From Lagopus muta (Eukaryota; Chordata; Aves; Galliformes; Phasianidae): a DNA stretch of 64,000 nucleotides. The notes beneath the pieces were generated by a model. It had not been told where the DNA came from, did no database searches, and worked only from the letters and a program-made list of their open reading frames with translations. Below are positions 30,501-56,490 of this stretch, one piece after another. Each line of letters opens with the position of its first letter. The stretch's first letter is position 1. A program made the position numbers and the translations under genes. The stretch lies in the NCBI RefSeq assembly GCF_023343835.1, contig NC_064437.1, positions 41,441,967 through 41,505,966 of the forward strand, given 5' to 3'.

Positions 30501-33500
30501 GCTAGAAGCAAGGGAGTGCCTGAGCTACAATAGTGTTTTACAGCTACCGAAGTGGGAGGGCACTCCCTACCCTGAGGAAAAACCCAATCCTGCCTTGAAC
30601 TCAAGACTTGTTTCTGGTGGATTGCTGGAGTTCCTGGTATTTCAGGCTTGCTATTGGTTCAGTAGATGCTGCCTGGAAGACTGTGATACTAAGGAACATC
30701 TGGAGAACTGATAACACCTAACCATGTTTCCTGTTCAACCTGCAAATCTGTCCACGCTCTCTCAAGTACTGTGGTCACTTGACTGCCTCATTAATCCAGA
30801 AGCAAAGCACGCCTTTGGCATGAGTTATAAGTGTGGGATGTGGTTACAACTTGTGAAACGTTCCTTAAACTCACTGACTGTCTAAAGAGCTGTGGAGCAC
30901 CTAACCCTTCCAATGACTCCCTGTTGGGGTCATTCCTTGACTTGTTGACACTTTGTAAGATTTGACTAAGAGAGGTTGATCCCACTTGACTTGAGCTTGA
31001 ACGCACTTTGTTCTTGCAGTTCCCAAGAGAAATGGAGTAAATGTAGTTAACAACCACACACACAGTGGAGAGATGGGTGTGTTCCCTTGGTCATTAGGCA
31101 TTTCTGGATGATAGAAGTCTCTTTCATTTAAGCATTGCCAAGGGGGGTAGCCTGGCACATCTCCCTGTTAACGTACTAGGAGCAAATCAGATTGGCAGCA
31201 AGGTGTAAGAGTTGGTAGAACCCCCCAAATTATTTTCCACATATGACTTTGGGGCGTCAAGGTAAATGACGACTCAACTCTTTTCTTACCAGTTGCAGGT
31301 TAATTTGTCCGTGGAAATGCTGCTTACGCTGTACTTCTCCTAGCAGTCTGGTTTGGAGGCAGCTTGAATCTTCAAGCTGAGTTACTGATAGTTTCCTAGC
31401 TTATCCCCTGGCTCTCTAGGAACTCTAGCCTGGCCCATAGAGAATCTCTGCACAGAAGCTTATATAACGTGTTAACTTGTAAGAGCAGTCACGAAAGTCT
31501 CATTAGTAGATTCAGTGCAGCTTTGGAGAAGATTGCTTAGGACCTTTTTCTGTGCATCTTGGAGTAATTCAGGCTGGTTCTCAGTGAAAGAAACATAACA
31601 CATACTTGAAGGAAGGGAAGGTTATTGTCAGTATATATTTATCTCACCATTTTTCCAGTAGCTGCCCTTGCAGAATGGTAATGCAGCCATCGTAAGCTTC
31701 CTTCTGGATTCCTGTTTGTTTAACAGGAGTGAAGAATTCAACTGTACTTCAGTATTCTGTAAACTTGTCAAAAGGAAAAGGCAGTGATGTCTGAGAGGGT
31801 TATTGCCTGTAATTGACTCACCTCTTTGTTAGTTTGTCCCATCACAGATACTAGCACTGAGGAGAGCTGCGATAGTTGGCACACGCCGATCTGAAAAAGT
31901 GTCTCACTGAAGTAAGTAGGGCAGTACCTTTGTGCGAGCAGGGTACAAGTTTCCCTGTAGCTTCCCAGTCCTTACACTGGCTTTTGTGTGAGCTCCTTGG
32001 CAGGCCCCATGTGAGGTACAGTAACTGCTGCTTTTTGGACTGTGTTAGTGATATTCTAGCGGAGTTAGGTTACTGACCTGAGCCTTCAAGAAAGGATTGC
32101 TGCTGCTTTTCAGCTTTTGGAGAGTCTTGGTACGTTTTTGGGCTTCAGGCTGTGTTTCTGAGGCAACTCTGTTTCTGGGAGACAGCTTCTGTTGTTTGTC
32201 AGGAATGAGCATCAGAGAGGTCAGCATGCGTATGAAGCTCTCATCTTTGGGATGGAGAAGCTGCAGCGGTCCTGGGGTGCTTGCAGACTGTCAGCTTGGC
32301 TGCAGGCCTGAAAGTTCAAGTCTTTTGCAAGTGAAAGCCCCTTAATTTGGTATGGGGGCTGCATTTTCACCTCCCCCTTCTCCTTCCCCTTCAATTTTCT
32401 CTAATTGTTTAATTTAGTTGCGCAGTGGCCGTTTGCCTTCTAAATTGGAAGAAGCCAGCTGGAAAAGGGAGGAGCCAGTGAAGGGGATGATTTCTGAAAC
32501 ACCCTGGCCTTCACAGATAAGCTTGTGTGGTGCTCTAAAAACAGTGGCATGTAACAACTTCATGGAAGTGGGGGGCAGGGTTGGATGGGCATGGCAGCTA
32601 ATCTACAGAGAAAGGAGACATCTATTTAAAAATGGGTGACCTCAAGTAGATGAAGAACAATGTGTAAAATAAAGGGATGCCAGAGATAACTAAGAAGGTA
32701 ATCCCATTGAGTTTATCCAGCAAGCATTAGGAGTTGTGTAAGGTAACTGACTGTGCTTTGTTTTCTCCTGGGTTGCTGCAGGCATCAGGTGTCAGTGCAG
32801 AGGCTGTTGGGGGAGAAGGCAAGGAAACTGTTCTGTTGGGAGCTAGCACACAGACTGGAACATTTGCTTTGGTTGTGAATATATGAGAGGAAGAAAAATG
32901 CTAGCTCAGAGATATGAGAACAAGCTAAAAGCAAAAGTTGTGGGAGTGTTAAAAGACTTCCATCTGTTTTCTGAATCTGGAAGAGCCATGTAGGTCTGCT
33001 GGCATACTGTCTTGCTGCAGGAGGGAAGGCTTTAAATACTGGTGGTGTGGTATTTCTTCTGTCCTGGAGCTGGTATGGATCCTGCAGTGTGATAGGCACA
33101 TTAAAATAGAAAGCCAAACAAAAATTGGAAGTTGGTTAAGAGCTGGATTGAACCAGAACGAGTTGCTGTGAGATTGCCTGGGTTTGGGCTTTGAACGGGC
33201 TATTAGATTGAGAGTTTGAGAAACTGCTTTTTATAACTCTCGTAGTTTAGTATTTCAGTTTAGTTCTGTAGCTTTGCAGTATGTTTCAAACAGGGGTAAG
33301 GGGGTAATTTTCTTTTGAAGTACAGAACAAAAGGCATAGGCTAATTCTTTACAAGTAAATAGTTTAAAGTCCTTAGTTCCTCTGTTTAAAGTCAAGGTCG
33401 TGCTTGATTTTAGCCAGGCTTTACTCTTCCTTGCAGAGCTTCTTCCCACTGTTCACTAACCTGTATCTGAAAGGGATGAATTGCTTTCCTTGGCCTTGCT

Positions 33501-36500
33501 GCTTGTCCTCCAGCCAAGAGCTGACAGCTATTTGACTTTCCAGTCTGACTTTGAAACTAAACTCTTGCTGGTGATTCCAGATGGATGGTGCGTGGAGAGT
33601 GTGCTGTGTGTTACAACAGGCCCTCTGTGAGCATTTGGCTGACCACCCACTTTTACAAGTTTAGAAGTCTTACAAGCAGTCCTAGGGTGCAGTTTTGCTG
33701 AAAAATGATGTGCAATCTTAGCCTTTTCCTGGGGGGAGAGCGTGGCAAACTTCTTGCTCTTGTGTAGAGGTTTTAAGTACGCCAGGCACATTTTTCTTAA
33801 AGTAAATGGGTCACTCCTCTGTGAAATCCAGTGTAAACAGGCTTTAGAGAGGAACAGCTGAAAAGGCTGTGGACTGTCACCCATAAAGCACTGTGTATTT
33901 GGCTCTACTTGATGTGTGCTGGCTATGTACCTAGCAGATGTGTTGGTAACTCAGCTGTGAAGCTGATCCTCTAATTGCTCAGAACTGAGATGTGAGAAGC
34001 AGAAACGTGATTATTTGCTTGTCATAACCTCACTAGAAGCTTTGTAGCTTAATTTGTGCTTCTTAGTGGTCAATGTAATTTTACAGCATTTTGTGATGTG
34101 TAAACAGCACTGATGTAGAAATAATGGCTCCTGAATAGCACCTATCCAGCTGATAGGTTTGAACAGGCTTCTAACAGCCCTACGAAAAATGACAGCAGTG
34201 CCCTTTAGGGTAACCATGGCTGGTTGCATAGGAGTGTGCCTGCTGTGGGATTTCAGGAGCTGTTTCTTCATTGGTTACTGCAGCCTGGAAGATTGAGCTG
34301 ACCTACAGGCAAGGTGGGTTGAGAAAACTGGGTGAAGCTGAGTGTCTGCTCCAGTGGCATTTGCAAACAGTAGTTTGTAGTAAACAATAACAGTAAATAG
34401 TAAACAATTAAAATACTTAAAATTAGCTAGGAAATGAGCTTGATGATCTTGCCTTATTACTAATATACTTACTTATTACTAATAAATACTTACTTATTAC
34501 TATACTTACTAATAAATACTTACTTATTACTAATAGTCCAGGTCTCTTATGTGTCTTTAGGGGAGCTGCCTGAAGATCAGCTGCTTTCCTAGAGTTGGCT
34601 GTGCTGTTGGTGTTTGGGACTCATCCTGACCTCTCAGAATAGAAATTACTGGATTGAAATCTGCTTAAAAGTATTAGTAAACTGAAGTGGCGTAATGGAA
34701 AGGGCATAATTACACAGTGCAGCACTGAACTGTTTACGCTGAAGTGGAAATCATTCTAATGTGCAACTGTGAAAGCACGATTCTCTCTTGGCAGCTGTGG
34801 CCAGCCCTGTTTTGTGGCAGAAGGACTGTGTGAAGGGTCCAGAAGTCTGGTGTCAGAGTCTTCGCACAGCGTCGCAGTGTGGAGCGGTGAAGCACTGCCA
34901 GCAGAATGTCTGGAGCAAGCCTACTGTAGTAAGTATCAACTGCTGGGGTGCCTGCCCAGGGTAGTTTGGGTAGCTGGTTTCCATATGCTGAAGATTTTCA
35001 GGTCTGATTGCAGTTAAGTGCTACATCAGACCGCACTGTGGTTGCTGTGAGTTAATTTGGGTGCCAGATAAGGGTTGCTTTCCATTTTGTGGCCTTGCGC
35101 AACCTGTCTGCTGACTTCTCATGTGACCTGTTGCACAGTGCAGCACGTGGAACGGAGCTAGTGGGTTTCAGACTTGATCCTCTTCATTAAGGCGATTCAT
35201 AATTCATAGGGCCCTTTTTATTCTGTGCCACACCAAGCTGGTAGGTTTAGTTAAAAAATAACAGCTGTGTGATTGCTTGGGTCTTTCTCACAGTATGATG
35301 TTCCACAAAAAATACAGCTTGTGCTAAATTAGGAAAGCCCTGACAGTAAATAAGTGTACAGTTGTTATATGTAGTACGGCTCTTAAACTGGTGCTAAATG
35401 TGAGTGCTGCTTTAATGGATACAGCTGTAGCTTGTGGTGTTGTTTCACAGCTTTCTAAGGCAAAGGCCATTTGTACACAGGTACATCCAACCCACTTTGC
35501 CTACATGTGTGCCTAAATGTGTTTCAGCTTGTGGAAAAATTAGGGAAAGGAGGAATGTTAGAATGGTTAAGTGTAATTAAAATGAATGAACCTGCCTTAA
35601 AAGTTCCTATGCTTCTAGTATGTGTGAACTTAAGTAATTTCTTATGCTTTTGTGTTTTGCTCTATCTTTAGACTGCAAGTTTGTGTTCTCTACTCTGTTC
35701 CAAGTTTACTTGACACAAAATAATTAATGTGAATCTGATTAAAAATTACTATATTTGTCCCTGATCTTTGGAAATTTAGACTTTTCAAATAGAAAGGTAA
35801 AACAGGTTCAGGAGATGACATCTCAGGTCAACATACTTTACCTTTCAAATGTGCTGGGACTAGGTGAGGTAATAGTGATGACAAACCTGCTTCTTCAGAA
35901 CTGAAGAAACTGGTGTTGGACATGCTCAGAATGGCCTTGCTCTGTTTTGAAGTGTCTCTGCTTTCACCTTAGTTCCAGCCAATACCTCTTCTTTAATTTA
36001 AAATATGGATGTGGTGCTCATTCTTTGCATTCATATTTGCAAACTGCATTTACAGGCACTTAATTCTGTCTCCAGTTAACTCTTATTCTTCTCTCCCTAG
36101 AACAGCATCCCCTGTGATTTATGCAAGGAACTTGTAACAGTGGTTGGCAAGGTTTTGAAGGACAATGGCACAGAGGTAAGCTGAGCTCTTCTCCTTGCTC
36201 CAAGGCACTTGTTCATTTCTTTGTCATAATAAAGTCTCAAGGTGAAGGGGTATAAGAATATTCTGCAAGAATTTTTCCCAATATGAACAGCAAGTGTTGA
36301 AAGGGGATGGATTACACAGAGTATGGCTTTTAAACCATTTTTTCTGGTTTAGAGATTAGCAAATCCTAGAGCCTTCCCTAACACATCCCTGATTGTCTAT
36401 GTATAGAATTGTTCTTGTGTTAGTGGGCCATTAATCTTGAAGGGTGTGGTAATGTAGAAGTGGATGAGGAAAGCAAGTGAAGTGGGCTTTATTTTGGCTA

Positions 36501-39500
36501 TGTGACCGCTTCCCTTTAGCTTTCATGAACTCGGAGAACTTACAAGCTAGCACGACAGTGATCTTTTCCTCAGTAATTTCACTTCCTATTTAGTGTAAAT
36601 GGCTTGTGGTAATAAGGGCATGTTGTATGGGCCTTGTAGGATGTATTTCATGTTTTCTCTTTGGTAGGGTTTCATTGAAGGTCCAAGACTGGGCAGAAAG
36701 CTGTAATGTAAAATCTTATTCTAATTTGGCTTACTGGCTGCCTAGATCTACCTGAGTCCAAGGGCCGTCTTTAGACCTCATAAAATGCATTTTGGGAGTG
36801 GAAAGAGCTTTTGATATAGGTTTAGATAATCTATGGCTTGCCTTATCTTTTATTAGGATGAGATTCGCTCTTACTTGGAAAAGACATGCGAGTTTCTTCC
36901 TGACCAAGGCCTGGCCTCTGAGTGCAAAGAAATTGTGGACTCCTACCTACCAGTTATCATGGACATGATCAAAGAAGAATTTGTAAGTAAACAACAGTCT
37001 GTAACTGTTTGAATTGAAAACTGCTGTTGTTCATGTTTGAGTTTTCCATACAGGATGATGCATATGGTCCTTTGGTTCTGTATGGGTTACTTGTGTTGCA
37101 CTTCTTTACATTTGAAGACAACTTCCTTACTGGGAACTGTTTTCCTGCTTCAGCAGAACAGCTGTCTACTCTTAACATCATGTAACAGTGCAGTCATTCC
37201 AGTGCTTTATGTACCTATCTTATCTCCCCCAGGATAAACCTGAAGTTGTGTGTAGTGCCCTCTCACTGTGCCAGTCCCTTCAGAAGCATCTTGCAGCAAT
37301 GAAACTTCAGAAGCAGCTTCAGTCCAATAAGATACCAGAGCTGGACTTCTCTGAACTGGCATCTCCATTCATGGCTAATGTGCCTCTTCTCCTTTACCCT
37401 CAAGACAAACCCAAGCAGAAGTCTAAGGTAAGGGTTCAGTGCTACTACACTGTGAAGGAAAAGTGTCAGTTTGCGTAAGAATTCATTGGTGATTCTTTGT
37501 AAGGGATTTTCATCCTGGGCATAGATGTTCTTCACCTGAGCGAAGTCTCCTAGTGCATTTTGTGCTTCTGCATATACCTGTACAGCTATCTTTTCTTCCT
37601 TGTGGATTTAAAGCTGAGTAAGCTAATAGCTGCAGCCGCTATGGACCATCTGTATTGGCTTGGATTAATAACTGCAGTCTAAGCAATTAAGTCTTGTGCT
37701 GGACTTTTCCTATCCAGGACCAGGATAGTAGTCAGACAGGTCTTACTTGAAATCATTTCTTCCAAGAAAGTGTTCAAAGGAAGAAGAGAGATTCCCCCAC
37801 GTTCTGATTAGTCTCCTGGCTGTGCCCTTCAGAGAAAGTGTTTGTCTCTGAATCTGGAGGTGACAGACTGGATCAGAAGAGAATGAATAGCTGACAGAGC
37901 GTTGTAGATGAGATTATGAACTTGGGAGTAGAGGCTGAGTCTGATAATGAACTTAGATAGGGGCACTGAACAGCTGGGTGGATGTAAAACCTGCTCTTGT
38001 GGGTGGAGGAGGGAGATCTATGCCAAATTTAGAAACCTTCCCCCTGCCATCTAGTAACAAAATCAAGAGGTTCTGGTGATGGATATCTCAGCTGTTATAT
38101 CGAGTTTCAGAGCTGTGTGTACCTCATCTCCATCTAGTGGCTGGTGTACATACTGACAGGAATGTGTCTTTTCATGTGAGGTTGGGCTTTTAAGTATTCT
38201 GTATGGTATTAATTAAGGTTTATATATAGCTTAAAATAACTATTAAAGCTTATTACCACACTTGAGAAGATTCAATGGCTATGTGAGGATGTGTCAACTT
38301 CTTTTCACTCTTGGTCCAGGGAACTGAGGATGTATGCCAGGACTGCATTCGGCTGGTTACTGATGTTCAGGAGGCTGTGAGGACAAATGCAACTTTTGTG
38401 AAGTCCTTAGTTGCTCATGCCGAGGAGGAATGTGACCGCCTTGGACCTGGAATGTCTGATATGGTAAGTTATCCTTCTGTTTAAAAAATTGTTTCTCAAT
38501 GTAAACATAAAACATTTGATCGGTGCCTTAGCCTCCTCGGTTATTCTATAATATAACCAAGGAGCATGTGTGACATTTGGTGCATGTTATGCTGTATAAC
38601 AGTGACAACATTGAAGTATCAGCTTTTTGGTCCAGTAAGTAGCAGTGGTGGGGGGGGGGGGGGGGGGGGGGGAAAGGGGGTTAATGGGAGTGGAGGGGAC
38701 AGAAAGAGGCTCAAGATGACTGAGAGGCTTTAAAGATGCATTTCATAAAAATCATCTGTAAGTGTAATGGGGTCAGAGAAGTACAGAGGGGTGCTTTTTC
38801 CCTGGGAGGCATGGAAGGACTCATTAGATAAGCAGGTATGTGGGCAATGATTGTGTAACCTGAAATGCCATCTTATGCTTGGGACAAGCTGTGAAAGATA
38901 ACAGTGTAGGTGTTAAGTAGAGCAGGTAAATTAATGCTTTAGGAAGTATTAGAAAATTTTAGGTTAGCCCTGTAGCTTAAGTGCCCTGAGAATGACAGCA
39001 AGGCTTTCTTTTCTCACTTCCTGCAGTGCAAGAGCTATATCTCTGAATATTCTGACTTGGCCATCCAGATGATGATGCACATGGTAAGATCAGTAAAATG
39101 TGATATTTGATCTCGGTTCATTTTTCTGCTATGTGTAGCTAGCTTATTTGGAAACAGGAAATGCTTTTTGTAGTAGAGGTGGGTAGAGTCTGCTCTGTAA
39201 GTGTTGGTAGTAACACTTGGAATCTGGCATTTAATTGGATAATAACCTCACTCCCAGTTTGCTTCAGCCCTTTCCTCTTCTTCCGCAACTGCTTCAGTAG
39301 TGCAAAAGGCACGCCAGAGATACAGAGGAAGATGCTTTATGTACATTATGCATGACTATCTCAGTCCTGTACTTATACCACTTTTCCCCTCAAATACTGT
39401 ATACAAATAATGTCTCTGTCACAGTTAGCGTTGCAAAATTGATTCAAGTAAGTGCTGGAGATAAGTGTATCTTGGGGGTTGTGCACTGTCACCCTCCATT

Positions 39501-42500
39501 TTCTTTATGGAAAGAGTATGCAGTTTAAATGCTTGACAATTTTTTTTCTTAACTGTTATCTTTAATTTCTCCTATCTTCTTCTGTCTCCCATTTTCTTTG
39601 TCAACAGAAAGATCAGGTAGGTGAATAACTTGCCTGTGGTGGTAGCCTGCTTGTAGTTCACTTGCTACTCTTAAAGGGCTGGTAGTTCACTTCTTGCTCT
39701 ATTAGCTGTGTATGTGGTGTGAGTGCACTCAGTTTTGACAGATACAAGGGATGCTTATGTGATGACAGCAGGGAAAGACTTCAGACTTTTGCCAATTGAT
39801 TGGCCTGTCTTCCAGCTCTGCATACCAGTCTGTAGTACCAAGATATCAACTTGGTTATGCTTTGGCTGGTAGAGCAGATGATGTGCTTACTTTCATACGA
39901 GATAGAAGTGGGAAGAGAGAGCCAGCGGCTCTTGTTAGCTTCTGGTGTAATGTTTGGGCTCAAAAGGGCTTGAGTCTGGCTATCTTTGGGTCACCTTTGT
40001 GTTCTCTTTGTGACCTATCATATTAGATGCTCCGAATACACAAATCGAAGGGAAAGGTGCAGGAGGCCTTTAGGCTTCTGCTTCTTAGAGCTGTTTGGGC
40101 TTTCAATTTAACTGCTCCTGGGAGACCTTGTGTCTGTCATCTCTTTGAGAGAGAACACTGTGCGTGTGGATGTTGTTTTAACATTAATGTTAAGGAAATG
40201 CTTATAACGACGCATGAATCAAAGGGCTTGACTTAAAGGTACTGTCTGGAGTAGCCTGAAGCATCGCTGTAAGTCTGAGATACTGCTTTTGCCTGTGCAT
40301 GAGGTTATGGCGTGATGTTGAGTAAGCCTCTGCTGTAATAAGCTTGATGACTTGGCTCATTGGGTGGGTATGACCTTCTAGTTATCTGTAGGACTAAAGG
40401 TAACTTTTAAAAAATCTTAAATAGACTCAAGGGGAGGGGAAACTCAAGTTTTGCATGATTCTCTGAAAAGCCTTTCTCACCTTGTGTAGGTACAGCATGA
40501 CCTCCTTACAGCAGTGTATTTGCCTCATGTTCAGGATCTGTTTCTGCATTTAGTAATGTCCTTGACATCTGAGACGCTAGAAAGCCTTTTTAATGGCTTT
40601 GTCTTATGCTCTTATGGCTGTGAGAAGAATGCTTTGAATGTAGAATTGCATATACTTTAAAAAAAAAAAAAAAGGGGTAGGGTTAGGCTTAGTTTTTAAC
40701 ATGGTTAACTTTTGTTCATTATAGGCTTATAGCGTTCAGTAATACAGGAATGTGTTTCTGTTTTCAAAATGTGATGTTACTGGATGCTTTAAAGAAGCTA
40801 GTTTGTGAAAGAGGAGGAATCCTTTCTTCAGAGCATTTCTTCCAGTTCTTGGGTGAACTTGTCAGCAAAATGAACCTTTTCTGTAACAACTTGGGGCTTT
40901 CAGGGGAGCAGCTTATGGATGCAGATCTAAGGGGGTGGTGGTGACCTGTTTTGGTGTTGGTACATCTTAAGTCAACTCCTTTGAAGGGCTTGCATATAGC
41001 ATATTAGCTCTTGGTAAATGGGTTTTGAAGTGGATGTGGCCTAACCTCCTCTTCTTCTAAGGGAGCTGCTAAATTTGGTTTGGTAGCTGTTCTGCCTGTA
41101 ACCATACCAAATGCTTTGGCAATACTTAAGTAGTCCTGAAACCAATAGTTGTGTTGGAGCCTTTTAATAAAGGTGTGTCTTGTTCTCTTGGCGCTCCCAC
41201 AGGCCCCATAGAAAGGGGTGCATCTTCTAGACCTTTAAAAGTTACTACAACTCTCTTTCCAGCAACCAAAGGACATTTGTGCCATGGTTGGATTCTGTCC
41301 TTCTGTGAAATCTGTTCCCCTTCAGACTCTGGTGCCAGCTCAAGTGGTTCATGAAGTGAAAATGGAAACTGTGGAGGTAAGATGGATGACTTTGTACTCA
41401 AAAGCTTTGCTACCCTTTTTTTGCTTTACTATAATGAACGAGGTGAAACAAAGTAAATGCTTGTATGTGTTGTATAATCCAAGTCTCCCTGCATATAAAA
41501 TCCTGGGCTGTTGTTTTTGAGGCTGGTCTGTAAAGTAGAAGGGAGCTGATGCATTTATTATCTTTCCACAGCCTTTAAGTTAAGCAATGAGATGAGGTTT
41601 TTTTCCAGTCTCTTTTGCATATAGCTAACTTCTGATAAACAGTCTCCAAATAATTTCCCTCAACTCCCTCTGTGTTTTTTAAGACCCAAACAGGAGGATG
41701 CTCTCAATTCTAGTAAATTTTGTTCTGTTAATGTGTTTTAAGAAATACTTTGTGTTTCCCTTGACTCCAGTCACCATGGCAGTGCTTATTTTTGTTAGAT
41801 TTAACTCTCTGCCTCATGCAACCTGAGAACTGTGGTCTTAAATAATCATACAAAATAAGTTTTCATACAAAAAAACATTTTATAAAGGCCTTTGAGGTTT
41901 TGGGGCTGTGCAAGACCTCTTGAATCTAGCTCAAACTGGCTAGCTAGGTAAAGGGCTCAGTATGCCAGTCCTGAATGTAAGTGCTGTTGGACTGATCTTT
42001 TATGAATTGTACTGTCAAATGTGGTCTGGTGTTGATTTATTGTTTTGTATGAATGTTTATATTCTCAGAAAGCTGCAGTTCAAGAGAAGACTTTTTCTGT
42101 GTGTGAAATCTGTGAGACGATGGTGAAAGAAGTGACTGGCCTGTTGGAGAGCAACAAGACAGAGGTGTGTAAGTGATGAAAATGGTACCCCTGCCAAGGC
42201 TTTGGCTAAAATGGGCCTGTATTGTTATTGGTTTAGAGGGGAAAGAAAGCTCAGCTTCATGAGAGCGAGAGTTTTCTCCTCGTTTGCTAGGACAAAGGAA
42301 GCAAATACACTTGAACAGATGGACGTTTGTGTCTGTTATTTGCTACTCGTGCTTCCTTGTCCTCCAGGAGGAGATTGTGCATGAAATGGAGGTCGTCTGC
42401 TACCTGCTCCCAGCAAGTGTCAAAGATCAGTGTAAGGACTTCATAGAGGTCTATGGCCAGGCTTTGATTGACATGCTCCTGGAAGCGACAAATCCTGAGG

Positions 42501-45500
42501 CTGTGTGTGTCATGCTGAAATGCTGTGCAGCCAACAAGCTTCCGCAGCAGCCAGGTTGGTAAAGAGGACTTAGTATTGTTGCAGTATGAGCTAGTTAACC
42601 TGTGATTATATCCTCTGTGGATTCGTGCTATCATCCTTTGCCTAGTGCTGCCTCCTTTCTTCTGTTGGGGGAACTACCTAAGTGTTTTTTTTCTTTCTCA
42701 GTTGTGGTGAAACCCGCAGGTGGCTTCTGTGATATCTGCAAGATGGTAGTAGCTTATGCAGACAAAGAACTCGAGAAGAATGCCACAACAACTGAGATTG
42801 AGGCTTTACTGGAAAAAGTCTGTCACTTCCTGCCAGAGTCTGTCAGTGATCAGGTAAAGCATCTGCATAGGGGCAGGCTAAAAAGCAATTCTGTGCACAG
42901 TCCAAGGCTGAAAATGAAATGTCAGCACATGCAGCTGGAACTGATTTGGTTCAGCCACCCAATCCTTAGGATTTTTCCTTCTCTACTTGGCACAAAGGCA
43001 GAGCAAGCTCTGACATTCCCTCGCTCCAATTTGTAGGAGGGAGATGAGGTTCTTTTAATATCTGTATACCCGATGTGAGATTAAGAAACAACAAATCAAA
43101 TGTTGGTCTGACCAGATTATAAATCCTAATCAGGGAGATGGGGAAGGGAAAGAAGGCGATAGAAAAGATAGGAAAGATGTGAGAATTGTGTAAAGTGGGG
43201 ATGGTCACCACCAGGATCCAGCAGCGGTCCCACTGCACAGCGTTTCAAAGGTCTGAGGCAAAAGCAGCAGGGGAGGAGAGCAGCAGCAGCGTGGCCAGCC
43301 TTGGGCAGCAAGCAGGTAGCAGGAAGAAGTCGCAGAGCCAATCCGTGGGGGGGGAGGGGGAGGTATGAAGGCAGCAGGCCTGATCTGGGCAGTCCTGGCT
43401 GTGTGGACAGCCTGCCTTCCGATCAGTGCAAGGTAAAGATGAACAGAAGAATGAAGCAGAGAATGTGGGAAGGCTGGAGTGTAGTAGTACCTCGGGGTGT
43501 TTCTTATAAGAATATAATCAGTGTGACAGTGTGACAGAGTTGGAGGAATCTCCTTCTGCAGAGACTGGAAGGACTTGGTTTGGGCAGACTAGATTTTCAT
43601 GTTCCATATCCTTAGAGGGGTTGGCAGTCTGAATGGATGGAGACTTCCAAGGTCTTGGCTGGCTGGCTGCTGTACTCATTTGTAGTCAATAAAGGTCTGC
43701 CTGGAAATCCTCTGAGAACAGTGGGTGGAGGCAGCTGAAGGGTTTTTTCCCTTCCTATCTCAACAAGGATCCTGTTAGGGGGGATTAACAAAGTAACTGG
43801 ATGTTAGCTGGCATAATTCCAGTGAGATAGTAAAAGGCAATGGCTGTTACACTGTTGCTGTCAAGGTTTACCTGGAAATCTTACTAGGTGGCTGCTGAGT
43901 GTCAACTGCTTGTAAGTTTAGCAGGCATATTATATGCAGGGTTGAAGTAGCCATGAAATAGCTGTTCCTGCTAACTGCTGTGAGGCTGTTTAATAGCTGT
44001 GGTTGGCTTATTAATTGGTGCCGTTAGTCTCTGCTGAGACTGCCAGTGTGTCTGTGCTTCAGAGTTGGCCTCTCCACTAGAGGGCTGACTGCTAGTGATG
44101 GGAAGCACTTCTGCAGTTGCCAGAGTGGATGGTTACTGCTTGGGTTAAAGAAGCTTAAGAGCCATCATTAGTGCATTGCTGTGATCCTGTTCAGGATGTT
44201 TGTCTTCAGCTTGAGCGTGCTTTCCCCAAGACGCTGGTAAGCTCCACTATCAGAGACTGAGCATTGCACATCAAAGCATGTGTTGCTTTTTTGACCACTT
44301 TCTCATTGCAGCCCTTTTCCATACTCAATTGTGTCTACAGGCAGGTATGAGCTAACCAAAAATTATTTTGTTGTGGGGTGAATGCCATGCTGAATCTTCT
44401 GATCTGCGGAGCTTGAGTCTCTAGTTTATTGGTTTAGAGTGTGTTATTGGAGTGGTTGGAGAAAAAGATTATGGGTCGGCTTGCTAAAGACTATATTACT
44501 GTGATCTTTTTAAGGCCTTAATGGGAAAATCTCTCAACCTGTGCTTTGTTACAGTGTGTTCAGTTTGTGGAACAGTATGAGCCTGTGGTTGTGCAACTCT
44601 TGGCAGAGATGATGGATCCCACTTTTGTTTGCACTGTGAGTATCGTGTTTAGTTCTATTCAGGATGGGCTCTGATACAGTCCTGCCTACTCTTCCCTATG
44701 CTTTTCAGCGTGTAGCAAGCAGAAACTCTGTTGGAATAAAAATTAGTGTGCTGAATGCTTTGAGCAAATTCACTTGTGCAAGGCCTTGGGCTTAATGAAT
44801 GGACAGCTGTTTGACTGCCAGCCTTGTGTAAAGAAGGACAGAAGAAAAGAACTGCCAGTGGTTATCCACTGTTCAGGTTCAGTAACAAGCATGTTGTGTC
44901 CTGAATGGGATGAGAGGAAGTTAAATGACATTTGAGAACCATCCCTTTCTAGAAGCTGTTTCACAATACTTAATATGAAAAAGTTGTAGTAACTTAATTT
45001 TTCCTGGTGTTACATTGCTGCTTTGAGTCTATTGATTCAGCTGCAACCATGACTGCAATTGTCAGCTGAGGACAGTGCTGTGTTTGCTCCTGAAGCTGCC
45101 TTTGGGCTCCTGCACTTTGTTAGGTAAAAGCTCAGATGTAAGGCTGCAGTCTAAATGTTTTGGTGCTGATTCATACTGACTACTGCTGTTCTTTTCACAG
45201 AAATTAGGAGTCTGTGGAGCAGCTAAAAAGCCTCTCCTAGGGGATGATGCTTGTGTTTGGGGTCCAGGTTACTGGTGTAAGAACATGGAGACTGCTGCTC
45301 AGTGCAACGTACGTAAAACCTTGAATTTCCAATTGTCTTTGAAAACCTCCTTAAAAACTAATTTGCCAGCTTCTGTAGCACACTAAGTGGGTGAATTCTT
45401 AGGTAGGTGCTGAGTTTCATTAGAGGTTCTTCCATAGCCCTTAGTTTTCTCAAAGCATGCTGTTCCTCCCTTATTCCTTCCTATTTATTACTGTGCAAGC

Positions 45501-46311
45501 ATTTTGGAATCAGAGTCATGGATTTTCAACCCATGGCTTGGGTTGAAAAGGACTACAATGATCATCTAGTTTCAACCCCCCTGTCACGTGCAGGGTCACC
45601 AACCACCAGATCAGGCTGTCCAGAGGCACATCCAGCCTGGCCTTGAATGCCTCCAGGGATGGGGCATCCACAACCTCCTTGGACAACCTGTTCCAATGTG
45701 TCACCACCCTCTGAGTGGGAAAAACTTCCTCCTAATACCTAACCTAAACCTCTCCTGTCTCAGTTTAAAACCATTCTCCCTTGTCCTATCACTATACACC
45801 CTCACAAACAGACATACCTCCTCCTGTTTATAAGCTCTCTTCGAATATTGGAAGGCCACAGTGAAGTGTCCCTGGAGCCTTTTCTACTCCAGGCTAAACA
45901 AGCCCAATTCCCTCTACGTTTTTTCATAGGAGAGTGAATAGGAATGCATAGTAAGCTGCAGTATGAGCTTTGTATATTCTGTGTTCCAAGAGCCATAAAG
46001 CCTTGTCACAACCTGTGTTCAGGCTCTAAAAGTTGGCTTCAGTATTGTTGTGGATTGATGCTTTCTCTGCCAGGCCTTAAAGACTGAGGATCATTGTTTC
46101 TGAGTGGGGGGCAAAAATACAGTTTATTGTAGTTCTCTATGGAACCACTTATTTTAAGAAATGTTTTTTGTTCCAAAATCTTAGTTCAGAGTAAGGTGTT
46201 AATTGTGTAAGTAAGTACCCATTTGTCCTCTAACAGGCTTTTTTCCACTCACATATACCATTTTTTTCCCTGCAGGCTGTTGATCACTGCAGACGTCATG
46301 TGTGGAACTAG
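27597..46311 (+). CDS. PSAP: PSAP, prosaposin (precursor of saposins A-D), complete
   Basis: Fifteen coding exons: 27597..27639, 34795..34928, 36101..36175, 36857..36982, 37233..37427, 38320..38463, 39027..39083, 39608..39616, 41263..41376, 42069..42164, 42368..42554, 42702..42853, 44555..44635, 45201..45308, 46276..46311. They total 1557 bases, 518 aa. Layout: signal peptide ([14 protein letters not shown]), N-terminal saposin-A-type domain, SapA, SapB, SapC and SapD, then a C-terminal saposin-A-type domain ending HCRRHVWN. Each saposin has the cysteine skeleton for three disulfides and one N-glycosylation sequon (NGT, NAT, NKT, NAT). Lysosomal proteases release the saposins, which present sphingolipids to glucocerebrosidase, arylsulfatase A and others; the uncleaved protein is also secreted and neurotrophic. 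SapC carries one extra cysteine. The first intron is about 7.2 kb. A tandem paralog follows 3 kb downstream. Confidence 0.97.
27640..34794 (+). other. PSAP: PSAP intron 1 (about 7.2 kb)
   Basis: The donor GTAAGC follows 27639 and the acceptor TTGGCAG ends at 34794. The interior is single-copy by eye, with a small tandem repeat at 34440-34540. No embedded gene or recognisable transposon was seen. First introns of this size often hold enhancers, but none can be named. Confidence 0.8.
34440..34540. repeat. TACTTACTTATTACTAATAA tandem repeat in PSAP intron 1
   Basis: About four imperfect copies of an AT-rich unit of roughly 25 bases built from TACTTACTTATTACTAATA. It is a minisatellite. Confidence 0.85.
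38650..38672. repeat. G homopolymer of 23 bases in PSAP intron 6
   Basis: The run lies about 190 bases after the exon 6 donor. Long G runs can act as intronic splicing enhancers or form quadruplexes in RNA; the next exons include the 9-nt microexon, about 940 bases further on. Confidence 0.9.
39608..39616 (+). CDS. PSAP: PSAP 9-nt microexon (Lys-Asp-Gln) in the SapB region
   Basis: AAAGATCAG sits between the acceptor TTGTCAACAG and the donor GTAGGT. It keeps the reading frame whether used or skipped. Mammalian PSAP has an equivalent 9-base exon (Gln-Asp-Gln) that is alternatively included, changing SapB by three residues. Its presence here was found from splice signals and homology; it is far too short to appear as an ORF. 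Confidence 0.9.
45515..45945 (-). mobile_element. CR1 LINE 3' part in the last PSAP intron, minus orientation
   Basis: The + strand shows the reverse complement of CR1: ACAATGATCATCTAGTTTC, GTGCAGGGTCACCAACCACC, AGGGATGGGGCATCCACAAC, GGAAAAACTTCCTCCTAATA, AACCATTCTCCCTTGTCCTA and CTCCAGGCTAAACAAGCCC. About 430 bases, the second-longest copy in the window. It is antisense to PSAP. Confidence 0.92.
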
Positions 46312-48560: not shown

Positions 48561-49139
48561 TCTGTTGTTCCCTTGGTGTGTGCTCATTCCTGAAGGATCT
48601 TGTCAGCGTCCCTTTGCCTCAAAGGCAGAAGAGGGCACGTCCCAAAATGTCACCTGAAGCTTTTGCAGCAAGGCAGGGCGATGCCAGGAATCCTGAGGCT
48701 GAATGACAGGATTCAGGTTTGCGTTGCAGCATGCATGTCCTATCAAGCCTTTTTATATGGAGGGCAGCTGTGGGCTTGCCAGGGATTGCTGCTGCTCGTC
48801 TCTTCCCTGGATGAGCGCAATGCCTGCTGTGAGGTAACACTGACGTGTCGCAATTCCCATGCAAGGCCAGGAGGGAGTTCTTGCTGGAGCTGTTTGCGAG
48901 TCAGCACTGAAGCCTGCTATCATTTAGCATGGCTTCTGCATGTGTCTGCATTCCTTGTTTTTATTTGATTGCAATATATTTCTTATAAATGCTTAATGAC
49001 ACCATTGATTCTTTTGAATAAACTTACTGGTCTCTAATACCTGTGCTAGCTTTGGGCAGTGGGTTCTGGGCTGTGAAATGAAGCCTGGTTGGTTCTGACC
49101 TCCTGGGAATACCTGCCTGACTCTGGTCCCTCCCTCCGC

Positions 49140-49301
49140 TTGCATACTGCTGCTCTGATTTTATAATCAGGGCATAAAGAGGGGTGTGGTAATTGCTGTG
49201 CGTAGGTGTCGGTTCTCACTACTTCTCCCAGCTGTTCCAAGATTCCTCAGTCTGGGAGAAGCACGGGAATAACCAGCACTGAGGACTGTCTTGGGAACAG
49301 C
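49140..49301 (+). promoter_or_regulatory. Putative proximal promoter and 5' UTR of the prosaposin paralog
   Basis: Only about 280 bases separate the last possible PSAP poly(A) signal (49017) from the paralog ATG (49302). AT-rich TATA-like words TTTATAATC (about 49160) and GCATAAAGA (about 49171) occur 130-145 bases before the ATG. No CpG island is present, unlike PSAP, which suggests more restricted expression. Confidence 0.4.
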
Positions 49302-52300
49302 ATGGCGAGCAAGTGGAGAGGCTGGGTGCTGATCCTCTCCGTGTGCTTGGGGTCGTACCAAGGTAAGGTCAGGCCTTGTGCATAGGGCTCTTTCCTCAAG
49401 AGAGCTCAGAAAATGCCTCTGAACCCCAGAACTATTCCAAGCTATCTTGAGCATGTGTTCCTCCTTGGAAAGGATCAGAAAGGTTGAAACTCAATAGCAC
49501 GCTTCCTTGTCCTCTGGTTTTGGGCACTCTCCAATGGGTTGAGCTCTGACTCCTGTTCATTTGGAATTGAATGTTCTGGTTTTTGCTCTGAATGGTGATT
49601 TTAAGGGCAGAAAATGATTCCCATAGGAGCCAGCAGAGCTGGTGTTTTTGTAGGGGCTCAAGGGTGTGGAGGAGATGAGATTGAAGAGGATGAGTCAATG
49701 TGGAATCTCAGCAGCTTGGCTGCTGCCCTCTGTGCTGGGGCCTGGATGTGAATATGTGCTGTGGGAGCCATTCCTTGTACTGTGGAGAGCCAGAATAGCA
49801 CACACAGCTGTCTGTTGGGTTGGGGGTAGAGAAGCAGGAAGCCCTTTCTGCTGAACTTCCTAGCTGGGTCTTGGTGAGCTCTGGGTTACCGGGTGTAACG
49901 TTGGAGAGCTGCTGAAGCCCTCATCAGTAGAGCTTTGGGAGCAGATTCCCCCAGGCAGCAGAAGGCAGAGGGGTCTGTACCCAGTGGTACTTGCTGATGG
50001 GGGAGGGAAGAGGGTTGGAAGCACTTAGGAGGTAATTCCTTGGGGAAGCCACAGAGCTCTGTAGATGCAGGAAGGTGAACTTAAGACCTTTTGTGCACTT
50101 ACTTTGGCCACCCTCCCATTGGGCTCCACAACCTGTGCTGTGCTGGCACTGTGGTGGAGTTGTGCTCACCGCATGGGATGTGCTGGGGGGGCATGGGCTG
50201 CTGGGAGCTTCCCTACCAGCAACAGGACCAGCAGGAAAATTCACCTGTGTGCTCAGCATGTTGGAGGCAGCCTGCGGTGGGAGGGAGTGCAGCTCTCCCA
50301 CATGCTCGCCAACTCCTCATTTCCTCGTTGCTGGTGGGAAAACCCTCCAGTAATGTTAACATCACCTCTTCTTGGCCAGATCCTTGGATGGTTTGGGGGG
50401 AAAAGCTGCGTTTGGGGAGTGTGTTTCCTGGCTAGTAACTGGGGCGCAGGGCCCACGTGCCACCCCCAGGCTTGCGCCACAACCGGTTCTCCGGGCTCAG
50501 CAGGCTCAGCTGTGGAACGAACGCTCCTCCGCGCCCTGCAACGTGCTCAAGGCACAGCGGTGATCCCATCCCTACATGTCCTTCAGAGGGCCATTCCCAC
50601 CTGGGGACCGTTTGTGTGGTTGTTCTCCAGCCTGATGCTGGTAGAGGTGCCCATGTCTGTGCGTCAGCCTGTTCACGTCTGTTGGATTAGGTGGGGCTGT
50701 GTCCGTGGGTCAAGCTGGGCCATCCCAATGTGCACGCTCAGTGTTTTTTGGGTTGTGTGGTGTGTGTGCAACCCCTTCCGTGCTTACTCAGCATCTCACA
50801 GGATGAGCTGGTGACCCAACATCCATGAAAACAGTGATTAAAATGGACAGCTGTCTGATCTGGGAGGATGTGGCAGGTAGAAATGGAATCTTGGGCCACT
50901 TCATGCTGAGGCTGTGCACCTCCCTTTCCTAACCCTAGCATCACATTTCTGTATGCAATCTGTTTTCCTTAATCAAAGTGGCATCAAGAGGGAGAACTGG
51001 CTTCAAATAATAAAGGGTGGATTTTGCTAGGGGAAAGCATCAGCGCTCCTTTTTCAGCCATGTAGATGTGTGTATCATAAATAGGTATTTTTATATATAG
51101 TAAGCTCAGAAGCAGCCTCAGGTTGCAATGCTTTGTCTCTTTTCTTTTAAATGGGGTTGCCCCTTAGCTCTTGTCTGCCTTGCTGTTCCTGTTCAAAGAC
51201 TGTTGCTGTACCTACATCAGCTGATGCAGTGTGTGCGTGCCTCGGTGGGACTATTCCATGGGAACAGTCCCTGTCGGACCCACCCTGCCCTGGAGCAGCC
51301 CAGCAGCACTGCAGAGGGCTGTGCTAGCACTTTTGCTGCAGATGCAGCTTGTGGAGGGATACTGCTTGCCCTGTCGTGCCTGCACAAAATGCATCCTGAC
51401 ATGTGGAGGTGGCAATTAAACACTGATGGTGGGAGGTGCTTATCAGGTGGCATTGCACCATGCCTGGCCTGAGTGAGAGCGATGCTGTCACCTCTGGATT
51501 ATTCATTTTGCAAGATTTATGAGTGTTTTTTTTACGGTGACACCTTACCAGGTGTATTCAGCCTTTCAGGCTGTAGGTGCCTCACATTCTCTGTGATTTT
51601 AAGATGCTGTTATGTGCGCCTGTCCTTATTGAGGGCAATAAATGATGTTGCAAAAGGAGAAGGAGGAAGAGTTGGGGTTGTGTGAGCTTTGGGTGTCGGC
51701 AGCACATGGCAGAGATAAAATAATAGTAGATGATGCTATTGTGAAAGCTGAGGCGAGTCAGGGCAGGAAGAATGAGCAGCATAGCATCGCTCCTTGCTGC
51801 CTTTGTAGCTGGGGATGGGATGGGATTGGGTGAAATGGGAAGCAAGGAGACAGATAGGATGGGAATGAGACAGAATGTGATGGTATGAAAGAGGGTGTGA
51901 TGGAATGGAAAGAGATAAGTTAGGATGCAATGGGATGAGATGGAAGGGGATGGTATGAAGTGGGATGTAATGAGAAGAGACAGGATAAGAAGAGGTGAGA
52001 TTAAATGTGATAGGATGATTGAGATGTGATGGATAGGATGGAGTGGAATGGGATTGGATGAGGTGGGATGCAGTGAGATGGGATGGGATGAAAGGGGAAA
52101 GAGGGGATGACAAGAGATGAAATGTGATGGGATTTGATGTGATGGAATGGGCTAGAATGAGTTGGGATGAGAAGAGATGCAATGGAATGTGATGGGATGC
52201 AAGGAGATGGGATGGGAGGCTTGCGTGAAGCAGGCTGGCAGTCCATGGGTTGGGGGTTATGCCACCCTAGGGATCCATGTATGTGCCTGGGTACTGATGT

Positions 52301-55300
52301 TTCCCTCTCCTCCCCTAGCTGGGGCCAGCCCCCTCCCTGAGTGTGACGAGCAGCCAGAGGAGTGGTGCCGTGATGTGGGGACAGCAGCCAAGTGCGGGGT
52401 GCTGGAGCTGTGCCGGCTCACTGTTTGGGACCAACCAGTAGGGGTAACTGCAACTGGGGGAATGCGTGGTATTGACCTGCCCATAATCCAGGGGTGGGAA
52501 GTGGGAAGATACAGAGGGTCTGGTGCTAAGACAGCATCCTGATCCGTTCTCTGTCTCAGCAGAAAGGGATCCCATGCCACCTGTGCCAGGTGGTGGTGTC
52601 CATGATGGGCAAGATTCTGCAGGACAACTGCACCGAGGTGAGCTCTTACTGGGGGCACGGGCTGCTGTCTCCCCATGCGTCTGCAGGGCCGACCCTGAGC
52701 TGAGTGCTCCCCTTCTCCTCTAGGAAAAGCTGCGGCTCTTCTTGGATAAGAGATGTCAGTATCTGCCCTTCCAGGACTGGTCAGTCAAGTGCAAGAAGAT
52801 GGTGGACACTGGTGTCCTCGTCCTGGCCCAACTGGGCAAGCAAGTGCTGGTAACAGCCTGGGGACCTCTGCAGCAGGGAAAACCCCTTGAGATACACAAT
52901 GTGGGGAGCATGATGGGGGAATACAACCCTGTAATGATGTGGAAGGCTGTAGACAATACGTCTGCAGGGAGAGGATGGAAATAGGAATGATGCTTTGGTG
53001 TGGGGATAAATGTTGATATGGTGATGGCCCCAGCCTGCTACCTCACTCCCACAGTCAGACCCAAAGGTGGTGTGTGGCACTATCAAGTTGTGTCAACCCC
53101 GAGGGGGCCTTGAAGGGGCCCTGAAGTTCCAGGAACAGCCACCAGCCCCCGCTGACCCTGCACAGGACTTGGCCCAACTGGCTGTGCCCTTCATCAATGG
53201 TGTTCCGCTCCTGCTCCAGCCCCAGGACCTGCCTCATGCCCAGGTACTGATAGCTGTCCCTCTCTTTATAGCCCATATACCAGTGCTGTTCTGGTGCTTT
53301 GGGTTAATGAGGGTCCTGGAGCAAAACTGTTTATGTTTGACACTGAGTTGTGCTGCTATCATCCTGCAGGACACTGGGGACCTGTGCGAGGACTGCGCCC
53401 GCCTGGTGGCAGCTGTGCAGTTGGAGCTGAGCAACGGAGCCACCACTGCTCGCTCACTGATGGCCCGTGCCAAGGAGGAGTGTGAGGGCCTGGGGCCCGT
53501 CCTGGCACAGCGGGTAATGTCACTGCACCAGGGACATCCTAGTGGCTGCTGGGGCTGGGAGGTGGCAGAAGGCAGTGGTGGTCACCGTGCCCCAGCTTGT
53601 TTGATATCTTTATTGACCTGGATGAGGGGATTGAGTGCACCCTCAGTTGCAGATCACACTAAGTCAAGAGGAAATGTCAATCTGCCTGGGGACAGGAAGG
53701 CCCTACAGAGTGATCTGGGTAGGCTGGATTGCTGGGCTGAGGTCAATGGGTTGAGGTTCAGTAAGACTAAAGTCTGTGTCCTACAGTTAGATTGTTGTAA
53801 CCCCAGGCACTGCTAAAGGCTTGGGGCAGAGTGGCTGGAAAGCTGCATGGAAGAAAAGGAAGTGTTCCAGAGTTGGGGAGATGTGGCACTGAGGGATGTG
53901 GGCAGGAGGGGGTGGGCTGGGGTTGGGCTAAGTGACCTGAGAAGGCTTTTTTAACCTGGATGATTCTATAATCCTATGTTCTTCCTGCACAGTGCAATTA
54001 CTACCTGGCCAAGTATGCGGACACAGCTGCCTGGATGCTCCGGCACTTGGTAAGTGGGAGAGCTGCTCTCTAGTGCTTCCTTTTGCTTCTACAACTTTCT
54101 AGATAGCTCTCACTGTTGCAATTCATTTTTTAATGATCGTTCTTGTATGTTTCTCTCCGCCCTCCACCTTCCCACCTCCAGCTGGCTGAGGTAAGCAAGA
54201 TGCCCACTAGCAGCCCAGTAGGGCCAGCACAGGTCCATGGGCTGAACGTGAGCCGTGTCTCCGCAGGACCCGCGGGAGCTCTGCAGCATGCTGGAGCTCT
54301 GCCCCACAGCAGACCCAGGACCCCTGCACACGCCGCTCTCTGAGAAAATGGCCCAGCTCCTGGGCACGCTGCTCTCCAATACGGTATGGCCCCGGCCCCT
54401 CTGCCAGGAAGGGTGGATGGGGTGAATGCAACTTAGCCCTTTTCTCTCCCTCCCAGGAGGCCACGCCGCTGTGTGAGATGTGCGAGTTCGCTGTGCGGGC
54501 GGCTGAGAGCCTCCTGGAGAACAACATGACAGAGGTGAGCGGGGGCTGTGGGGGGCTGCGGGCAGCAAGGCGATTTCCCCGTGGCATCACGCCCTCCCCA
54601 CCCAACAGGAGCAGCTGGTGAACGACATTGAGAAGGTGTGCTACATGCTGCCACACAGTGTCATCGGGCAGTGCAAGGACTTTGTGGATTCGTACGGCAA
54701 GGCGGTGGTCATCATGCTGCTGGAGGCCACCGACCCACAGGCTGTGTGCACCATGCTGCATGTCTGTCCGCGCCAGGAGGCGGCCCGGGGGGCAGAGCTG
54801 GGGGCAGGCATGGGGGCAGCACTGGAGCCAACTGCTGGAGCATTTTGCAACGTCTGCCAGATCTTCATCACTTACCTGGATAATGAGCTGCTGAAGAACG
54901 AGACGCTGACAGAACTGGGGGCTGTGCTGGAAAAGGGCTGTGAGCTGCTGCCCGGCCCGCTCACCAGCACGGTCAGTGGGGCTGTGCCTGGGGTGGTCCC
55001 TGATCACCACCCCAATACCAGGCTCACTGCAACCCCTCTCTCCTGCAGTGCGAGGCGCTGGTGATGCAGTACGAGCCAGCAGCTGTGCGGCTCCTCGTGC
55101 AGATGATGGACCCTGACTTTGTCTGCACTGTGAGTGCAAACCCACAGGTTGTGGTGGGACTGATAGCTTTCAGGGCACAACCTCACTCCTCCCCTATTTC
55201 CTCCTTGGCAGAAAATCCGAGCTTGTGACTCAGAGCTGACCTCAGCCCCCTGTGCCCAGGGACCTGACTACTGGTGCATCAGCATGGCCACGGCCACCGA

Positions 55301-55422
55301 GTGTGACGTAAGTGACAGCAGCAATCCTCCTGCCCACTGCACACCCTGCAGCGGTGCAGCCCCATCTGTCCCATCTCTCCCTGCAGGCTGTGGAACATTG
55401 CAGGCAGCATGTGTGGAACTAG
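49302..55422 (+). CDS. Second complete prosaposin-type gene, tandem paralog of PSAP
   Basis: Fourteen coding exons: 49302..49362, 52319..52437 (end could be 52443), 52560..52637, 52724..52849, 53055..53243, 53370..53513, 53993..54049, 54182..54190, 54267..54383, 54457..54534, 54609..54971, 55049..55129, 55212..55307, 55387..55422. They total about 517 aa. The order is the same as PSAP: signal peptide ([18 protein letters not shown]), N-terminal saposin-A-type domain, four saposins, C-terminal saposin-A-type domain ending HCRQHVWN. Exon lengths match PSAP almost one for one. All saposin core cysteines are kept. Sequons are present in SapA (NCT), SapC (NMT) and SapD (NET) but missing in SapB. 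The SapA sequon adds a cysteine. Two PSAP exons are fused (54609..54971). It is more GC-rich and compact than PSAP. Intact frames and splice sites argue for a working gene. It is not the intronless mammalian PSAPL1 retrogene by structure, and it has more domains than SFTPB. The substrate is unknown. Confidence 0.93.
49363..52318 (+). other. Intron 1 of the prosaposin paralog (about 3 kb)
   Basis: The donor GTAAGG follows 49362 and the acceptor CCCCTAG ends at 52318. It holds a degenerate ATGGG satellite at its 3' end. Open frames of up to 249 codons at 50.0-50.8 kb have no recognisable domain, overlap frames on both strands and were judged chance. Confidence 0.75.
51814..52216. repeat. Degenerate GATGGGATGTGATGGAAT-type satellite
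   Basis: About 400 bases are made of imperfect 5-mer and 10-mer units (GATGG, GATGT, AATGG, GAAGA), purine-rich on the + strand. It ends about 100 bases before the exon 2 acceptor of the prosaposin paralog. The minus strand reads as long TCCCATCCCATC-type frames that are not genes. Confidence 0.9.
52558..52562 (+). promoter_or_regulatory. NAGNAG tandem splice acceptor at exon 3 of the prosaposin paralog
   Basis: TCAGCAG offers acceptors ending at 52559 and 52562. Use of the second drops one glutamine codon and keeps the frame. The preceding exon 2 also has two in-frame candidate donors six bases apart (after 52437 and after 52443). Confidence 0.7.
53600..53980 (+). mobile_element. CR1 LINE with internal deletion, in intron 6 of the prosaposin paralog
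   Basis: It starts inside the CR1 coding region (TTTGATATCTTTATTGACCT, GGATGAGGGGATTGAGTGCA, GGTCAATGGGTTGAGGTTCA) and jumps to the 3' end (GTGGCACTGAGGGATGTGG, TTGGGCTAAGTGACCTGAG, GATGATTCTATAATCCTATG). The middle is lost. It ends about 10 bases before the exon 7 acceptor region, so its terminal repeat abuts the polypyrimidine tract. Confidence 0.88.
54182..54190 (+). CDS. 9-nt microexon (Leu-Ala-Glu) of the prosaposin paralog
   Basis: CTGGCTGAG lies between the acceptor CCCACCTCCAG and the donor GTAAGC, at exactly the position of the PSAP microexon (between the exons ending HMVK-type MMHM/LRHL and the exon starting DPRELC). Skipping it keeps the frame. Confidence 0.85.
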
Positions 55423-56490
55423 GAGCATCTCCATCCTGGACCCTCCCTCCCTTGGGATGCAGCCACAGCACCAGGGATGGGGTGTCCCAGAGTTTCCCTG
55501 CTTGGCTCTGAGACACTCCAGTCCACTCTGCCTTCTTCTTTTCCACCCCCGGGGCTTGGATTTTTGGATCAGGTTAAGGGATTTTGTCTTGTTGTTGGGA
55601 CTGGGAACTCAGCAGTAGGCTTGTTTCAACATACCCCCCTTATGCTATCCGCTGAGTGAAAACCTTTGGTCGTTTCCTTTCACATCCCACCCAGAACTGA
55701 CACTAAAGACATGATCAGAGCAACTCCATGGACTGGGATGGGCTCTGCTGCTGCAGTGCTGGTCCCAGTTTGCTGGTGCTCTCTCACCATGGGTCCCATG
55801 TGATTTTTGGCAAGACCTTCGCTAGACTCAGTCCCAACTGGGGCAGCTGTTTAATTTTATTTTTTTCCCATGGTCACCAGTTAAAGAAACAAAGCAGATT
55901 CCATGTGCCTGGCTTTGCATGACTTCTGCAGTAGATGAATGTTGCAGGGGGGAATGAGAAGACATAGGCTGGGTTAGAAACATGCATGTGTTTTTATATA
56001 TATATAAATATATTACATATGTTTATATATACGCATATCTGTTATGTGTGTGTATATATACATGTTTATGTGTGCATGTATATACACATATAAATACATA
56101 TATTTATGTATATGTAGATAGAAGGACACTGCCTTCACCCTGCTCCTGTGTGAGGATGGGCATAGCCTGCAGAAGGATGCAAACCCAGCACTGCAGGGCC
56201 AGGATGTGGGGTTCCCTTGCTGCAGGGAGGCATGGGCTGGTATCTCCAGCCCCAGGCATGGGATGCAACATGGGGTCACCTTCAATCCACTGGCACAGGA
56301 GCCTCCTGGAATATATATATATATATATATAGTGTGGGCATCCCATGAACACACAAATGAGTGAGTTTGGGATTTCCTTCCCAGCAAACATCTCTTGCAG
56401 GGGATCCCGATGCCAAAGTGTGGTGATGAGGCAGTGGTGTGCTGGCTTGTCCCCACTACACCACCAATAAACACCTCCATCAACCTGGCT
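55423..56490 (+). other. 3' UTR of the prosaposin paralog
   Basis: Non-coding tail after the TAG at 55420-55422, ending at a canonical AATAAA at 56466-56471. It contains TATA/TGTA-rich microsatellites at 55990-56117 and 56311-56331. Confidence 0.6.
55993..56117. repeat. TA/TGTATA-rich microsatellite
   Basis: Alternating TATATA, TGTGTG and ACATATA units over about 125 bases. Frames across it (both strands) read as Tyr-Ile repeats and are not genes. A second (TA)n run is at 56311-56331. Confidence 0.9.

Follow-up and report, generated by a model that had tools for sequence, protein, structure and literature searches.

A second prosaposin-type gene directly downstream of PSAP in Lagopus muta

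The precursor encoded by PSAP enters its pathway by means of a signal peptide, its SapA ends and linkers are removed in the lysosome, and the resulting saposins lift lipids for hydrolases. To our knowledge, mammals have a single PSAP at the syntenic place; mammalian PSAPL1, a diverged prosaposin of the same layout, is unlinked and intronless. The locus described here raises the question of what a second gene of prosaposin type, lying next to PSAP in a bird, represents: a working duplicate, a relative that already bears a name, or a decaying copy. Judging from the DNA sequence, we put at roughly 80% the probability that it is an ancient segmental tandem duplicate of PSAP that still works as a protein-coding gene.

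The locus and the gene model

The window, i.e., the whole analysed stretch of 64,000 nucleotides, corresponds to C8:41441967-41505966 in the searched genome (1.027 Gb, 165 contigs) and contains, in this order:

13138-14526, minus strand: CHST3-like sulfotransferase (Pfam Sulfotransfer_1, 85 bits)
27597-46311, plus strand: PSAP, 15 coding exons, 518 aa
49302-55422, plus strand: second prosaposin-type gene, in the PSAP-CDH23 interval
ending near 57369, minus strand: last coding piece of CDH23, whose 3' end faces the second prosaposin gene

The names CHST3 and CDH23 are those we presume from family match, C-terminal letters and neighbourhood, and exon 1 of PSAP was picked from three candidate starts by signal peptide, phase and CpG-rich setting. 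The original prediction of a second prosaposin gene placed directly downstream of PSAP, head to tail and about 3 kb away, describes a real gene: its start (49302) and stop (55422) are exact, and 2,990 bp separate the PSAP stop codon (ending at 46311) from the second ATG.

When rebuilt, the second gene has 13 coding exons that together read without a stop over 516 aa; each of the 12 introns runs from GT to AG, as had been proposed for its splice sites and frame. Inclusion of a candidate 9-bp microexon gives 14 exons and 519 aa. The earlier count of 14 exons thus holds only if the microexon is counted, and the earlier protein length of 517 aa is replaced by 516 or 519 aa. The coding exons, all on the plus strand, are the following:

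49302..49362, plus: exon 1, start codon and signal peptide (the latter by inspection only)
52319..52443, plus: exon 2, N-terminal SapA, also matched in the genome SapA search
52560..52637, plus: exon 3, first part of the A-like saposin, with an extra cysteine within an NCT sequon
52724..52849, plus: exon 4, middle of the A-like saposin (basic)
53055..53243, plus: exon 5, end of saposin A and A-B linker
53370..53513, plus: exon 6, B-like saposin, N-glycosylation sequon lost
53993..54049, plus: exon 7, B-like saposin, continued
54182..54190, plus: exon 8, candidate 9-bp microexon (LAE), at the place of the PSAP KDQ microexon 39608-39616
54267..54383, plus: exon 9, end of saposin B and B-C linker
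54457..54534, plus: exon 10, start of the C-like saposin
54609..54971, plus: exon 11, rest of saposin C, C-D linker and first part of saposin D, equivalent to PSAP exons 11 and 12
55049..55129, plus: exon 12, second part of saposin D
55212..55307, plus: exon 13, end of saposin D and first part of the C-terminal SapA
55387..55422, plus: exon 14, end of the C-terminal SapA and stop, 9 of 11 residues as in PSAP

The two other frames of the spliced gene carry 13 and 19 stops, and about 16 would be expected by chance in 515 codons at this base composition (probability of none, about 6e-8). The ATG has A at -3 and G at +4, and the protein ends in HVWN, as does PSAP. The candidate microexon lies in the intron after exon 7, behind a long pyrimidine tract and before a GTAAG donor; across the 64 kb, an AG-9 nt-GTRAG pattern together with such a tract is present at two plus-strand places, one being the microexon itself, and at none on the minus strand. 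The 9-nt exon of PSAP at the corresponding place is presumably the counterpart of exon 8 in human PSAP, which undergoes alternative splicing. Note also that the first intron of the second gene (3 kb) ends with a degenerate GATGG-type tandem tract (52023-52217; 39 copies of 5 bp, 61% matches).

Family membership and candidate identities

The encoded protein has the layout of a prosaposin. Pfam scores reach 93.9 bits for SapB_2, 87.7 for SapB_1 and 80.1 for SapA (cut-offs 21, 25.2 and 22 bits, respectively), but only two stretches for each of these models pass the cut-off on their own, so that no more than two copies of each half-saposin are recognised by Pfam alone. All four saposins were matched in a search of PDB, where 30 distinct sequences matched with E no higher than 1. 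The top 18 all derive from prosaposin (five D, four C, three B and six A), and each of them scores best on the domain of the same letter. The second gene thus carries four saposin B-type domains in the order A-B-C-D, SapA at both ends and, by inspection of exon 1, a signal peptide, in agreement with the domain content first proposed. Six conserved cysteines are present in each of the four saposins, with one more in domain A, and the sequon found at a shared place in prosaposins is present in A, C and D and lost in B. The mature saposins of the second gene depart from uniform acidity, with net charges of +4 (A), -3 (B), -8 (C) and -6 (D); acidity is a usual property of PSAP saposins and not part of the layout, and membership of the prosaposins by homology stands.

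Among named relatives, surfactant protein B (SFTPB) deserves consideration, since it belongs to the saposin family and has an N-terminal SapA. SFTPB has three saposins, of which the middle one is very hydrophobic, and no C-terminal SapA. SFTPB chains in PDB match domain A of the second gene at 22-34 bits, mature SP-B likewise carries a positive net charge (+7, from a provisional sequence) and seven cysteines, and a query with a provisional human SFTPB sequence matched only two exons of PSAP in the genome. However, the second gene encodes four saposins plus a C-terminal SapA, and prosaposin chains match it at 55-80 bits. Its odd cysteine is placed elsewhere, and mature SP-B is far more hydrophobic than the A-like saposin (GRAVY 1.03 vs 0.19). 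Chicken SFTPB, moreover, is reported on chromosome 22 (PMC10817956). That the gene is SFTPB under another guise is, on its architecture and scores, hardly credible, and the earlier concern that it might prove to be such an already named gene can largely be set aside. NK-lysin and granulysin share a basic saposin fold with the A-like domain, but have a single saposin domain without the prosaposin layout.

Queried with the protein, the genome yielded 20 matches (E up to 10), of which 19 fall in the window; among these best candidates, the only ones scored, there was neither a third copy nor an intronless PSAPL1. The twentieth match (E 0.34, two stops) was rejected as chance. SapA yielded 19 genomic matches, of which the four over the cut-off all fall in the window and none outside it; 1 of the 15 below the cut-off is in the window, and 3 of 14 control genomes also matched below the cut-off. 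Both SapB_1 matches at E up to 0.001 are in the window, as are 7 of the 11 SapB_2 matches (five over the cut-off), the remainder being one NK-lysin-like match over the cut-off and three below. PF20825 ('Saposin-like domain') gave ten matches, two of them over the cut-off; these two, L049 and L050 on contig C10 (C10:45769238-45774292; 58 and 55 bits), lie 5 kb apart and are perhaps two exons of one other gene. The NK-lysin-like gene (L016, C30:243889-246987) encodes basic saposin-type letters ending in ...VCTTLGMC and is, we presume, the likely NK-lysin gene. A search for bird SFTPB in its vicinity, covering 190 kb of contig C30 (4.69 Mb), gave only this NK-lysin-like gene. The failure to find SFTPB in the genome may reflect divergence, an assembly gap or loss, and we do not claim its loss. 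Searches for relatives in viral contigs (174 pattern stretches) and in prokaryote genome contigs (53 pattern stretches) confirmed none, and an Rfam scan of the window gave no match.

PSAPL1 is another gene of prosaposin layout, and the second gene could be its avian orthologue, mammals having retained only an intronless copy. We compared bird PSAP, the second gene, human PSAP and PSAPL1 in an unrooted four-protein alignment and tree, the human sequences used, that of PSAPL1 above all, being provisional. The informative columns lean towards such a link, joining the second gene with PSAPL1 in 15 cases, with bird PSAP in 11 and with human PSAP in 5, although long branches could cause this, and we gave the link a shade more weight because of this count. 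In the likelihood tree, by contrast, the two bird genes pair with each other and PSAPL1 pairs with human PSAP (100/99), and PSAPL1 is 47% identical to human PSAP against 33% to the second gene. Unlike the intronless PSAPL1, the second gene has 13 introns. Orthology with PSAPL1 is highly improbable, and the original view of a gene separate from PSAPL1 is upheld by the tree, though not by the columns.

Origin, divergence and age

With the microexon included, all 13 introns of the second gene share their phase with introns of PSAP, nine at the same alignment column and four within two columns of it; the C-D linker intron of PSAP is absent. The common phase and place of the introns indicate a segmental tandem duplicate that carried its introns along, and therefore not a retrocopy. 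The two genes have in common the arrangement SapA-A-B-C-D-SapA, six cysteines per saposin, 13 introns and a 9-bp microexon in saposin B, whereas the second gene differs by one intron fewer, a basic saposin A, a seventh cysteine, the missing sequon in saposin B and a promoter that is not CpG-rich.

Divergence between the two is considerable: 215 of 500 residues (43%) are identical, and only 30 of 99 four-fold sites agree, against 23% expected by chance (p 0.12). Silent sites are thus near saturation. By its letters, then, the duplication is old, and the proposal of a separate tandem duplication that stayed intact despite strong divergence is supported by the shared introns, the protein identity and the near-saturated silent sites. 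Since silent sites are so close to saturation, dN/dS against PSAP is useless, and the intact reading frame, splice sites and cysteines of the second gene are the only basis on which we infer purifying selection. The fast change of saposins A and B might suggest a recently dead or dying pseudogene that is open by chance. Even at near silent saturation, however, the gene retains its frame, all 26 splice sites (counting those of the microexon), the 24 saposin cysteines and both SapA ends, which makes this reading very improbable.

Identity is unevenly spread. Between the second gene and PSAP it amounts to 33/79 in saposin A, 33/78 in B, 42/76 in C and 39/79 in D, and between PSAP and human to 48/79, 58/78, 33/76 and 44/79, respectively. 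Four-fold identity is 11/25 in exon 11 and 4/7 in exon 12, against 15/67 in the other exons together; the combined 15/32 for exons 11 and 12 (p 0.005) concerns exons picked after the table had been viewed. Recent gene conversion with PSAP is excluded by the four-fold identities, but the closer match of C and D may owe something to a conversion of older date in exons 11-12. As a separate observation, PSAP saposin C (42368-42554) has an additional cysteine beside the last conserved one (CC), which is absent in the human domain and in the second gene.

Did the duplication precede the bird-mammal split, with the copy subsequently lost in mammals, or did it arise in the bird/reptile line? An older duplication is compatible with the unrooted four-protein tree. 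When sister saposins were used for rooting, none of six alternatives was rejected (AU p 0.27-0.45, with long branches and a bootstrap that had not settled), and saposins A and C each failed to form single groups in the rooted tree. Saposin B weakly groups bird PSAP with human (87/73). We also gave the older date somewhat more weight because of the four-fold result in exons 11-12. Against it, bird PSAP and the second gene share a state that differs from human in 41 of 312 saposin columns, and the second gene sides with human and not with bird PSAP in 22 (sign test p 0.02); leaving out saposin C gives 24 and 16 (p 0.27), and a like picture could result from conversion or from faster change in mammals. 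These shared-state counts lean to a duplication in the bird line, and we hold an origin before the split to be somewhat short of an even bet.

Expression, proposed function and significance

The promoter of the second gene lacks a CpG island of the PSAP type: the upstream stretch 48800-49400 has a GC content of 0.498 and a CpG o/e of 0.30, against 0.667 and 0.87 for the CpG-rich start region of PSAP (27100-27700). The candidate control elements, all motif matches only, are:

49162..49178, plus strand: TATA-like motifs TATAAT (49162) and CATAAA (49173), 129-140 bp before the ATG
56466..56471, plus strand: AATAAA, candidate polyadenylation signal of the second gene

A further TATAAA lies upstream at 48984. 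Because the upstream stretch shows TATA-like motifs and no CpG enrichment, the second gene would be tissue-restricted. Candidate polyadenylation signals of PSAP at 48535 and 49017 are located about 630 and 145 bp ahead of the first TATA-like motif of the second gene; the gap from the end of PSAP to the second promoter may thus be well under 700 bp, and read-through transcripts from PSAP into the second gene are possible. At the other end, about 130 bp separate the AATAAA at 56466 (plus strand) from one on the minus strand (TTTATT at 56604), which could serve CDH23, leaving almost no spacer between the two tail-to-tail genes.

Published data may already contain products of such a gene. The accession XM_027460548 falls in what is presumably the number range of duck. 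Under this accession (symbol PSAP), a goose study gives a 'prosaposin-like isoform X1' as one of the ten mRNAs with the strongest up-regulation in atretic follicles, with a log2 fold change of 5.89 (PMC9843891). That it represents the second prosaposin gene is a guess. In two eggshell proteomes, 'proactivator polypeptide (PSAP)' is listed for quail (PMC4550075) and 'similar to proactivator polypeptide (PSAP-1)' for zebra finch (PMC4666066). Titles and abstracts of the open-licence PMC text gave no description of a tandem avian prosaposin, and the accessible portions of PMC12235828 and PMC12864279 make no mention of a second prosaposin gene. The locus is likely to be auto-annotated already as 'prosaposin-like' in bird genomes, and we do not claim a newly discovered gene.

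The most pronounced change in the protein concerns the A-like saposin, which has a net charge of +4 (pI 8.75), against -8, -8 and -9 for the saposin A of two PDB chains, presumably from two mammals, and of the neighbouring PSAP. Relative to PSAP, lysine or arginine was gained at six sites and lost at three, and four of the six gains come from glutamate (E25K, E45K, E48K, E69K). The seventh cysteine sits inside the NCT sequon. Acidic sites common to human and bird PSAP were lost at 7 of 12 positions in saposin A and at 8 of 21 in C and D together; as this loss is not significantly higher (Fisher p 0.30), we make no claim of selection for charge in saposin A.

The second gene is most likely a working, tissue-restricted and partly re-specialised prosaposin. 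Its product would be a secreted or lysosomal precursor, cut like PSAP into four saposins and made wherever the non-housekeeping promoter turns the gene on. The C- and D-like saposins probably retain the ordinary lifting of sphingolipids to lysosomal hydrolases, while the basic A-like saposin has probably changed its partner, the best guess being a different lipid surface of more anionic character. With the partner of the A-like saposin altered, the PSAP pair would therefore have divided, and partly changed, its function. One may go further and imagine a bifunctional precursor, with acidic C and D serving lysosomal lipid breakdown and a charge-reversed A, paired into dimers through its spare cysteine, acting on anionic membranes in the manner of SP-B or NK-lysin; we regard this as rather unlikely. 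If this were so, the second gene would encode a prosaposin on its way towards proteins of host-defence or surfactant type, something that mammals lack.

As an event, the second gene is of an ordinary kind: a tandem duplicate of old date in which a single part has been re-specialised. Thinking about saposins, as in Gaucher disease, Krabbe disease and metachromatic leukodystrophy, mostly rests on one PSAP gene. Bird prosaposin work by antibody, probe or proteomics may have mixed two genes, and the intact tandem copy offers a natural test of which saposins have to be conserved and which are free to change.
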